Shown piece after piece: positions 4,088-23,276 of a stretch of 54,521 nucleotides of DNA. The notes below the pieces were generated by a model. It was not told where the DNA came from. It ran no database searches and was given only the letters and a program-made list of their open reading frames with translations. The DNA lies in contig DATLNE010000036.1 of NCBI GenBank assembly GCA_035536915.1, forward strand, positions 1-54,521, given 5' to 3'. The position numbers and the translations under genes were made by a program. Numbering within the stretch: position 1 is the stretch's first letter; each line of letters starts with the position of its first letter. Source of the DNA: Acidimicrobiales bacterium (GTDB taxonomy: Bacteria; Actinomycetota; Acidimicrobiia; Acidimicrobiales; JAHWLA01).

Positions 4088-5194
4088 GTGAGGGATTTCA
4101 CCGATGACTTGCGCGCGCTCCGACGCCGGCTGACGGAGGCCGAGGCCTACCTCGACATCGAGGGCAAGCGGAAGCGCCTGGTCGACCTGGAGGTCGAGAT
4201 CGGCCGCGCCGACTTGTGGGACGACGCCGACGCGGCACGAGCGGTGACCACCGAGTTCGGCCGGGTCAGTGACGACGTGAAGACCCTCGACGCCCTGCGC
4301 GCCCGCATCGAGGACGCCGAGACCCTGCACGAGCTCGGCGTCGAAGAGGGCGACGACTCGGTGGAAGCAGAGCTGGAGTCGGCCACAGCGGCGCTGGCCA
4401 AGGACCTCGACGCACTGGAGCTTCGCAGCCTGTTCAGCGGCGAGTACGACGAGCACGACGCCGTGTGCGAAGTCCATGCAGGCGCAGGCGGCACCGACGC
4501 CCAGGACTGGGCCGAGATGATGATGCGCATGTACCAGCGCTGGGCCGAGCGGCGGGGCTTCGAGTTCGAGCTCGACGACGTGTCGCAGGGCCAGGAGGCG
4601 GGCATCCTGTCGGCCACCTTCATCGTCAAGGGCCGCTACGCCTACGGGCTGCTGTCGGCCGAGCAGGGCACCCACCGGCTGGTGCGCATCTCGCCGTTCG
4701 ACTCCCAGGCCCGCCGCCAGACGAGCTTCGCCTCGTTGGAAGTGGTGCCGTTCCTCGAAGACCTCTCCGACGAGGTGCAGATCGACGAGAAGGACCTGCG
4801 CATCGACACCTACCGCAGTTCGGGCGCAGGCGGCCAGCACGTCAACGTCACCGATTCGGCCGTGCGCATCACCCACCTGCCCACCAACATCGTCGTCTCG
4901 TGCCAGAACGAGCGCAGCCAGATGCAGAACAAGGCCCGCGCCATGCAGGTGCTGGCGGCCAAGCTGGCCGAGCGCCAGCGGGAAGAGCGGGCCAAGCAGC
5001 TGCAGGACATCAGCGGCCCCACCACCCAAGCCAGTTGGGGCACCCAGATCCGCTCCTACGTGCAGGCGCCCTACCAGTTGGTGAAGGACCTGCGCACCGA
5101 CTACGAGACGGGCAACGTACAAGCCGTCATCGACGGCGACCTCGACCAGTTCATGGAGGCCTACCTCCGCTGGCGCCGCACCCAGGAGGGCTGA
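4088..5194 (+). CDS. prfB: peptide chain release factor 2
   Basis: RF2 terminates translation at UGA and UAA. The 368-residue product has the RF2 anticodon tripeptide SPF in RISPFDSQ (about residue 201) and the peptidyl-tRNA hydrolysis motif GGQ in SSGAGGQHVN (about residue 250). The GTG start is 3 nt after the secA stop, implying co-transcription. The frame is continuous, so the programmed +1 frameshift of many prfB genes is absent. A 50-nt palindrome follows 8 nt after the stop. Confidence 0.97.
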   Translation: MRDFTDDLRALRRRLTEAEAYLDIEGKRKRLVDLEVEIGRADLWDDADAARAVTTEFGRVSDDVKTLDALRARIEDAETLHELGVEEGDDSVEAELESATAALAKDLDALELRSLFSGEYDEHDAVCEVHAGAGGTDAQDWAEMMMRMYQRWAERRGFEFELDDVSQGQEAGILSATFIVKGRYAYGLLSAEQGTHRLVRISPFDSQARRQTSFASLEVVPFLEDLSDEVQIDEKDLRIDTYRSSGAGGQHVNVTDSAVRITHLPTNIVVSCQNERSQMQNKARAMQVLAAKLAERQREERAKQLQDISGPTTQASWGTQIRSYVQAPYQLVKDLRTDYETGNVQAVIDGDLDQFMEAYLRWRRTQEG

Positions 5195-5202
5195 CCCCGG
5201 TT

Positions 5203-5252
5203 GTTCTGGTCCGTGAATCCGGCACCAGGGTGCCGGATTCACGGACCAGAAC
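5203..5252. terminator. 50-nt perfect palindrome, family copy 1
   Basis: A perfect 23-bp stem with loop CAGG begins GTTCTGGTCCGTG at 5203 and ends with its complement at 5252. It starts 8 nt after the prfB stop. A second copy of the same length and layout is at 14777-14826. No U-tract follows. A terminator or mRNA 3'-end stabiliser is inferred. Confidence 0.6.
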
Positions 5253-5294: not shown

Positions 5295-5710
5295 ATGCAG
5301 GCACGTCGCAACCTCGTCTGGGCGCTCGCCGCGCTGCTCGTCATCCAGGTGCTCCACGGCCTCGACGAACTGCGCACCGAGGAAGGCGCCACGTTCTTCG
5401 GCACACTGGCCGACCCGGGCACCATCCTGGGCGTCACCGGCAACGTCGTCGCGCTGGTCGCCGCCGTCAAGGGAGTCAGTTGGGTCGTCCCGCTGGCCGT
5501 AGCCACCGGAGTGCTGGTGGCCCTGGGCTTCGTCGTCGTGCACGGCATCCCGACAGCGACCGACGCCACCGCCCCGTACTGGGGCGACGGCTCAGCCGAC
5601 GCCCTCCAGTGGGCCGGCGTCATAGCGGTGTGGATCGCCTGCGCCGCCGTCGTGGTGACGGCCCGTGCCGCGGGTACGCAAGGCAGCCCGGATAGCCTTG
5701 CTGCCAACTC

Positions 5711-5714
<4 letters not shown>
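5295..5714 (+). CDS. small membrane protein upstream of ftsE
   Basis: A 139-residue protein with about four hydrophobic segments (roughly residues 7-22, 45-62, 68-88 and 108-126). I recognise no family. The ATG at 5295 has GGGGG at 5283-5287 as a weak ribosome site. Its stop overlaps the ftsE start as ATGA, implying translational coupling with the FtsEX group. Codon use matches the neighbours. Function unknown. Confidence 0.75.
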
Positions 5715-14776: not shown

Positions 14777-14826
14777 GTTCTGGTCCGTCAATCCGGTGCT
14801 GTGGCGCCGGATTGACGGACCAGAAC
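14777..14826. terminator. 50-nt perfect palindrome, family copy 2
   Basis: GTTCTGGTCCGTC at 14777 opens a 20-bp perfect stem that extends to 23 pairs (one G-T wobble) with a 4-nt loop, ending at 14826. It has the same length and layout as 5203-5252, with paired compensatory changes. It lies between convergent genes and could end both. Confidence 0.6.
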
Positions 14827-14837
14827 GACTGGAACGG

Positions 14838-15944
14838 TCAGTAGACGATCACGCTCCGGGCCAGTTCGCCCGTCTTCATGGCCTCCATGGCCTCGTTGAC
14901 CTCTTCCAGCGGGATCTCTCGCGAGATGAGCTCGTCGAGCTTCAGCTCCCCCCGCTGGTAGAGCTCCACCAGCTTGGGCACGTCCTTGTGCACGTTGGAC
15001 GACCCGTACCAGCAGCCCTTGACCGTCTTCTCCTGCAGCACCAGGCCGAGGAAGGCGGGCAGGGTGACCATCACGTCCATGCGGGGGACGCCGACCAGGA
15101 TGGCCTGGCCGCCCCGGCGGGCCATTGTGATCGTCTGCTCGATCGTCTGCTGCAGGCCGATGACCTCGAAGGCCACGTCGACGCCCCGCTGCTCGGTCAT
15201 CTCCATGACCTTGCCGACCGGGTCGCCCTGGGAGGCGTTGACTGTGGCGGTGGCCCCGAAGTCCTTGGCCATGGCCAGCTTGGTCTCGTTCATGTCGACG
15301 GCGATGATCTCGCCCGCCCCGGCGATGCGGGCGCCCTGGATCACGTTGAGCCCCACCCCGCCGCATCCGACGACGGCCACGCTGTCGCCCTTGCGGATGG
15401 TGGCCGTGTTCAACGCGGCGCCCACGCCGGTCAGCACGCCGCAGCCGATGAGCGACGCCGCCTTGAGGTCGATCTCCTTGGGGATCTTCACCGCACCGAT
15501 GGCGGGGATCACCGTCGACTCGGCGAAGGTGCCTGCCGCAGCCATGTGGTGCAGGGGCTGCCCTTCGAGGCTAAACCGGGGCGTGCCGTCGAGCATGCCG
15601 CCTGTCGACAACGCCAGGTTGGCGTTCTCGCACAGGTAGGCCTGGTCCTTGTCGCAGAAGAAGCAGGCGCCGCACTGGGGGATCCACGAGATGACGATGT
15701 GGTCGCCCACCTCGAGCCCGTCGACGCCTTCGCCGACCTCCTCGATCACCCCTGCGCCCTCGTGGCCGATGATGGCGGGCAGGGCGTTGTAGAGCGTGCC
15801 GTTCTGCACGGAGACGTCGGAGTGGCACACGCCGGAGGCGGCCATGCGCACCTTGACCTCGCCTGCCTTGGGGGCGTCGACGACGACGTCGTCACGGATC
15901 TCCAGGCGCTGGTCGATCCCTGACAGCACTGCAGCCTTGGTCAT
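14838..15944 (-). CDS. zinc-dependent alcohol dehydrogenase (MDR family)
   Basis: A 368-residue medium-chain dehydrogenase/reductase oxidising an alcohol to an aldehyde with a nicotinamide cofactor. Catalytic zinc residues are Cys40 in GVCHSD and His61-Glu62 in GHEGAG. Structural zinc Cys are 91, 94, 97 and 105. The Rossmann motif is VVGCGGVGLN. It resembles the actinobacterial NDMA/mycofactocin-type group (TIGR03989-like), but no mycofactocin genes are nearby. GGGGGAG just upstream supports ATG 15944. Confidence 0.9.
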   Translation of the reverse strand: MTKAAVLSGIDQRLEIRDDVVVDAPKAGEVKVRMAASGVCHSDVSVQNGTLYNALPAIIGHEGAGVIEEVGEGVDGLEVGDHIVISWIPQCGACFFCDKDQAYLCENANLALSTGGMLDGTPRFSLEGQPLHHMAAAGTFAESTVIPAIGAVKIPKEIDLKAASLIGCGVLTGVGAALNTATIRKGDSVAVVGCGGVGLNVIQGARIAGAGEIIAVDMNETKLAMAKDFGATATVNASQGDPVGKVMEMTEQRGVDVAFEVIGLQQTIEQTITMARRGGQAILVGVPRMDVMVTLPAFLGLVLQEKTVKGCWYGSSNVHKDVPKLVELYQRGELKLDELISREIPLEEVNEAMEAMKTGELARSVIVY

Positions 15945-23231: not shown

Positions 23232-23276
23232 TCCCGAGTACATGGCGTAGGGAATCCCTACGCCATGTACTCGGGA
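23232..23276. terminator. 45-nt perfect palindrome
   Basis: Arms of 21 nt (23232-23252 and 23256-23276) pair perfectly around loop AAT; the left arm opens TCCCGAGTACATG. It starts 9 nt after the carboxyltransferase stop. Sequence differs from the 50-nt family, but placement is the same. No U-tract. Confidence 0.6.

Follow-up and report, generated by a model that had tools for sequence, protein, structure and literature searches.

The palindromes that follow many genes in this actinobacterial genome are best read, with a probability of roughly 0.6, as copies of a REP-like, non-autonomous mobile element that lies almost exclusively within ~20 nt 3′ of stop codons, where it is tolerated or used as a 3′-end hairpin. 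This reading draws on the multicopy state of the element, its boundaries, the conservation of pairing at the DNA level, the placement at gene 3′ ends, and presence or absence specific to one species. The element is real, multicopy, and structured, and in kind it is a variant of REP/SLS. The window (the whole stretch of 54,521 nt that was analyzed) is contig C36 of a 3.23-Mb genome (G000; 99.5% complete). It contains two copies of the main family, A, and one of a second family, B, in the following surroundings:

4088..5194, plus strand: peptide chain release factor gene with PCRF and RF-1 domains, upstream of copy 1
5203..5252, unstranded: family A palindrome, copy 1, GTTCTGGTCCGTGAATCCGGCAC–CAGG–GTGCCGGATTCACGGACCAGAAC, perfect 23-bp stem (23/23 pairs)
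5295..5714, plus strand: gene downstream of copy 1 in the same direction, starting 42 nt beyond the palindrome
14777..14826, unstranded: family A palindrome, copy 2, GTTCTGGTCCGTCAATCCGGTGC–TGTG–GCGCCGGATTGACGGACCAGAAC, 22/23 Watson–Crick pairs
14838..15944, minus strand: zinc-binding dehydrogenase gene, convergent on copy 2, with its stop 11 nt from the end of the copy
23232..23276, unstranded: family B palindrome (TCCCGAGTACATGG... arms, 21–22 bp), 9 nt past the stop of a carboxyltransferase gene

The sequence-only reading had described the first two as 50-bp palindromes with 23-bp arms and a 4-nt loop, which differ at stem positions 13, 21, and 22 and lie just past gene ends without a U-tract, and all of this was borne out. 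The only non-Watson–Crick pair of copy 2 is a T-G at position 21, and neither copy has a T-run on either side. Copy 1 starts 8 nt past the release-factor stop codon, and the gene behind it, which has no Pfam match, is followed by an ABC transporter ATPase gene. Copy 2 starts 15 nt past the stop of a putative 52-codon ORF, also without a Pfam match. Both copies fold far better than shuffled sequence (z ~ −8; RNA folding z-scores of −8.0, −7.7, and −8.5, with 0 of 200 shuffles equally stable). A known RNA family was ruled out as their identity, since neither palindrome was matched above the Rfam gathering score in the window; copy 1 gave sub-threshold matches, nearly all to miRNA-type hairpins. 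The one Rfam match above that score is a raiA structured RNA (RF03072, 156 bits) at the window start (81–336).

The sequence-only reading would have been refuted had these two copies stood alone, and they do not. An arm pattern search of G000 with up to two mismatches matched 49 arms (0 in the control), and a search requiring both arms returned 23 palindromes, each exactly 46 nt from TCTGGTCC to GGACCAGA. Combined, the searches place family A at ~30 sites in the genome, whereas the reversed-pattern control gave none. The congener G001 contains 73–76 copies, at matches that coincide with those of the Actinomycetota MAG 0813_bin7; reversed-pattern controls for the copy counts gave 0–2 matches. 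The ~30 sites include four truncated by the beginnings of contigs C17, C26, C30, and C52, whose first 10–35 bases lie within a GTCGATCCGG-type palindrome (L014, L017, L019, L027), and the hairpins thus seem to break assemblies. C26 and C30, with reverse-complementary loops (TGGA/TCCA), may be the two sides of one site.

The element is a perfect inverted repeat of 48–50 bp. Its outer arm, GTTCTGGTCC, is constant, the base pairs in the middle are exchangeable, the inner arm is partly constant, and the 4-nt loop is hypervariable. Among 96 copies, stem positions 2–10 (TTCTGGTCC) are nearly invariant, positions 12–14 carry several alternative Watson–Crick pairs, positions 15–17 are mostly ATC, positions 18–19 set the subtypes, and positions 20–23 are mostly GCGC. 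Position 1 is frequently mismatched, and the loop varies with a tendency to begin with a pyrimidine. Two subtypes occur in G000, GTNNATCCGG and GGNAATCCCG, and the 26 copies of the largest G001 subfamily have nearly identical arms, yet their loop bases reach 1.4–1.9 bits of entropy. One alignment admitted only sequences with exact CTGGTCC and GGACCAG, so that the invariance of these words is partly by construction; the looser search that yielded the 96 copies gave the same picture. Some palindromes are chimeric, with arms from different subfamilies (L123:426-475, L127:7948, G001 C145:25688), pointing to a possible exchange of arms between copies.

Pairing is kept while the sequence changes. 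Across 24–96 copies, 95–98% of pairs are intact even as stem positions 12–14, 19, and 22 vary. In the 24 distinct copies of G000, 97.6% of cells are paired and 49 are double-changed, compared with 16.1 (sd 2.8) in shuffles, none of 500 reaching 49; in the 96 copies, 2095 of 2208 pairs are Watson–Crick, all of these figures coming from paralogues that are not independent of one another. The flanks share a consensus (YC on the left, GR on the right) but show no covariation outside the 50 bp (p 0.06–0.99 per position, 96 copies). This fixes the boundary of the element, and a stem extending into the flanks was rejected. Selection for an mRNA hairpin should favor G-U over A-C mismatches. The 113 mismatches in 96 copies comprise 19 G-U, 22 A-C, and 72 others, and where a copy has a single clear sense strand, the 50 mismatches include 9 G-U and 12 A-C, showing no preference for G-U on the transcribed strand. 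RNA folding alone is therefore insufficient to account for the pairing, which is maintained at the DNA level. Template switching between arms has been argued to produce double changes in one step (PMC8794818), and the combination of invariant arms, variable loop, and absent wobble bias agrees with the palindrome itself being copied, through a mobile process based on the hairpin, through template switching, or both. The sequence-only reading had left two options, selection for the fold or replication of the element as a palindrome. Of these, the latter is the better one, given the multicopy state, the paired changes, the covariation confined to 50 bp, and the presence/absence at orthologous junctions, while selection of an RNA fold draws no support from the mismatch spectrum. 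Compensatory changes are usually held to prove that an RNA fold is under selection. Here they occur in a dispersed element that shows no sign of tolerating G-U, and so they suggest that it is the palindrome itself that is copied, which is a caution for covariation-based RNA discovery, as covariation here need not mean RNA.

The copies are located 1–20 nt downstream of stop codons. Placement statistics cover 53% of G000 (1.72 Mb), use the gene calls of a simple home-made caller, and were computed relative to the same sampled stretches. Long hairpins number 68 in the 1.72 Mb of G000 and 64 in 0.41 Mb of G001, with none in 360 kb of shuffled sequence; per-megabase counts of family A are not unbiased, because some of the sampled sequence was picked for containing its copies. 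Of 105 family hairpins, convergent gaps hold 41 and divergent ones 11 (31% expected by length, p 5e-7), so that convergent gaps are favored and divergent gaps avoided (p < 1e-6 each way). Where gaps measure at least 150 nt, 9 of 10 hairpins lie within 25 nt of a stop, compared with 1.45 expected.

Such placement, right after stops and enriched between convergent genes, also fits the main rival explanation, in which the palindromes are U-tract-free (I-shaped) bidirectional terminators or 3′-end stabilizers, with the RNA hairpin under selection and the family spread by recombination. Actinobacterial U-tract-free terminators have a strong GC hairpin right after the stop, and the palindromes resemble them in exactly this. 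The folding energy of ~ −49 kcal/mol per element is in line with the explanation, as is one junction at which the congener has an unrelated GC hairpin in the place of a family C palindrome of G000. We nevertheless consider it rather unlikely. Downstream T content is 1.12 per 8 nt versus 1.24 in the background, and only 2 of 138 ends have four or more T, so that the U-tract of an intrinsic terminator is missing, whereas some other gene-end hairpins in these genomes contain A/T at the foot of the stem, as ordinary bidirectional terminators typically do. Only 132 such hairpins accompany about 2,100 genes read, and some are inserted between tightly packed, probably co-transcribed genes, which argues against strong obligatory termination. 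The G-U excess is absent as well, and unlike I-shaped terminators the palindromes form a common sequence family, turn over at orthologous sites, and pair in a DNA-level, not wobble-tolerant manner.

Turnover was seen by comparing G000 with G001, for which 248 reciprocal best hits gave a median protein identity of 77%. Among 21 comparable syntenic junctions, 17 have a hairpin in one species only and four share it, and at the former the median gap is 73 nt with the hairpin versus 6 nt without. By this pattern of occupied and empty junctions, the majority of these copies postdate the split of the two species. Of nine empty tandem junctions, seven either have overlapping genes or leave no more than 25 nt between them, and it is this tightness that argues for insertion rather than loss. 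A gain would typically be an insertion of roughly 55–110 bp that comprises the 50-bp palindrome with a C-rich left and a G-rich right flank; C makes up 58% of the bases between stop and element, compared with 38% in the background, and these flanks are probably part of the inserted piece. In a few places where a start and a stop codon formerly overlapped, the bases of the overlap are found on both sides of the element (C30:31914, L127~5). Otherwise a search for target-site duplications found none beyond chance, as flanking direct repeats are no longer than in shuffles, and at a median protein identity of 77% the two species are too far apart for exact empty sites to be read. Two of the shared sites differ between the species: one shows a G-C to A-T exchange (C44~104/L244~9), and at another the outer arms are the same and the inner arms differ (C52~19/L253~5). 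Presence/absence polymorphism at orthologous sites and the form of a short, multicopy, mostly intergenic palindrome, both observed here, are marks of a REP-like mobile palindrome in the broad sense. Neither a transposase nor an insertion intermediate was found for the palindromes.

A purely mutational origin of the perfect pairing, with template switching during replication keeping old palindromes perfect without mobility or function, is improbable. It would produce the double changes, the scarcity of intermediates, and the missing wobble bias, a mechanism for which RNA stems (PMC8794818) and quasipalindromes provide precedents. A tandem duplication of ~50 nt in G001 (L240:1700-1830), which begins at the end of a gene, whose TGA it includes, and extends into a palindrome's left arm, likewise fits hairpin-induced replication slippage. 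But this origin leaves unexplained the 30–76 dispersed copies with common outer arms and the 17 occupied/empty junctions, and both the chimeras with unmatched arms (L123:426, G001 C145:25688) and the unpaired stem middles of a more distant relative (G397) have stayed uncorrected.

The hairpins of this relative belong to a wider set of elements that share the outer arm. Among the 397 genomes of the order, only five contained the combination TTCTGGTCC...GGACCAGAA. Three more genomes, of which at least two belong to the same order, have elements 43–44 nt long whose outer arms are unchanged but whose inner arms differ; CTGGTCC...GGACCAG, at a constant 43 nt and with inner arms that are unrelated, was found in G004 (n = 6), G327 (n = 18), and G397 (n = 13). 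G397 is an Ilumatobacter MAG, and G327, whose element and coordinates are the same as in the MAG Acidimicrobiales SS_bin_33, is thereby placed in the order. In the G397 stems, the middle four positions are mostly unpaired and random, so perfect pairing is not required of every member of the wider group. What stays constant is thus the outer arm, the behavior one would expect of a recognition site, although its sharing describes multicopy recurrence and not measured conservation, since the search itself demanded that arm. In the Ilumatobacter MAG, some hairpins lie at the center of arrays (L152:1809-2005, L174:2784-2896, L178:4072-4199) in which the arm GTTCTGGTCC(A/G)C is repeated directly on either side, in units of ~16 nt that all face inwards. 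These nested palindromes seem to have grown by arm duplication.

An outer arm that is nearly invariant, symmetric, and common to distant genomes, together with the 16-nt tandem arm arrays, could also mark binding sites of a homodimeric DNA-binding or nucleoid protein recognizing GTTCTGGTCC...GGACCAGAAC. A dimer would not need complementarity at the varying inner positions 12–14, 19, and 22, however, and G000 and G001 contain few solo arms, which makes a protein binding site hardly more than a slim chance. Classical REPs mobilized by a RAYT (IS200/IS605-type Y1 transposase) are the least probable of all, for although the palindromes share the life style of GTAG/CGTC REPs, being short, intergenic, and at times providing a stop codon (PMC3733652), and although Y1 (IS200/RAYT-type) genes are present in G327 (C372, C278) and G397 (C235, C68), distant carriers of related palindromes, a Y1 gene is absent from G000, even at 99.5% completeness, from G001, and from G004, and the two G397 contigs are not among the contigs listed with the motif. 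With 0 matches to the Y1 transposase (PF01797) in G000 and G001, the GTAG tag in 0 of 96 copies, and CGTC at 12 of 192 ends (8 left, 4 right), a RAYT-driven REP was rejected, as gene and tag are both missing.

Three further identities were discarded. An insertion sequence with the arms as terminal repeats is contradicted by the solo arms, which are few and none of which, among those listed for the examined half of G000, pair at IS distance. A phage origin found no support, as a strict pattern had 0 matches in viral contigs. A DNA uptake word would be too rare, as GTTCTGGTCC occurs only 50 times in the whole of G000, mostly inside palindromes, unlike DUS with hundreds to thousands of solo copies; DUS terminators, which an SLS survey mentions as inverted DUS pairs after genes (PMC2267715), are nonetheless similar in using one common word in inverted orientation behind genes. 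That survey (Cozzuto 2008, PMC2267715) covers 40 genomes, apparently few of them high-GC actinobacteria, and its repeated families with a common stem-loop resemble the present ones in general build. Further parallels are found among GTAG- and CGTC-tagged repeats, the CGTC class of which has no known transposase (Di Nocera 2013, PMC3733652). Like these REPs, the palindromes are short, multicopy, and intergenic, with paired subfamily changes, variable small loops, and a TAG stop sometimes supplied. Unlike them, they have perfect 23-bp stems (REP stems are mostly 6–13 bp; PMC3733652), no unpaired end tag, no GT pairing preference, and an actinobacterial host without a Y1 transposase.

The REP-like mobile element that we favor would move as a single-stranded hairpin, recognized through its outer arm by an enzyme other than a Y1 RAYT of its own genome. 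What keeps its arms complementary would be copying from a folded strand, template switching between the arms in replication, or both. The vicinity of stop codons may be where copies land or are tolerated, and a resident hairpin might shield mRNA 3′ ends or partly insulate convergent genes, which would explain the closeness to stops even in long gaps. The hosts represent an uncultured group of actinobacteria in which such elements behave as tiny mobile DNA after stop codons. The elements amount to a naturally occurring collection of portable gene-end hairpins, for which many junctions can be compared in occupied and empty form, and raise the question of how REP-like palindromes are mobilized in hosts without a RAYT.

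Several other hairpin families in the same genomes behave like family A. A2 (TTCTGGCC...), B (CCCGAGTACATRG...), and C (TTGCGTANG...) share its build, and G001 contains two more, D (TTCTCGTTGCGG...) and E (GAAGTGTGCGGAGTTG...). Family B has 17 copies in the examined half of G000, and its arm often provides the TAG stop of the host gene (ACATAG; distances of about −11 to −16), as in GTAG REPs (PMC3733652). A broader proposal, which we offer tentatively and well short of even odds, is an Acidimicrobiales superfamily of mobile hairpins that share (GTT)CTGGTCC as outer arm and have a core of constant length, 43–44 nt. It would spread without a Y1 transposase, target the first few bases past stops, and be copied as a folded strand, so that arms change together and the loop is re-made, with the sequence-unrelated families A–E using one machinery.

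Other hairpins were seen alongside these families. Ordinary-looking terminators with A/T-rich stem feet are present in G000 at C1:21249-21285 and C47:48492-48526, and the unrelated GC hairpin of G001 at the site of a family C palindrome in G000 lies near gene 8 of L244. In G015, another genome of the order, the reversed pattern CCTGGTC...GACCAGG has 22 matches, which possibly represent another palindrome family.
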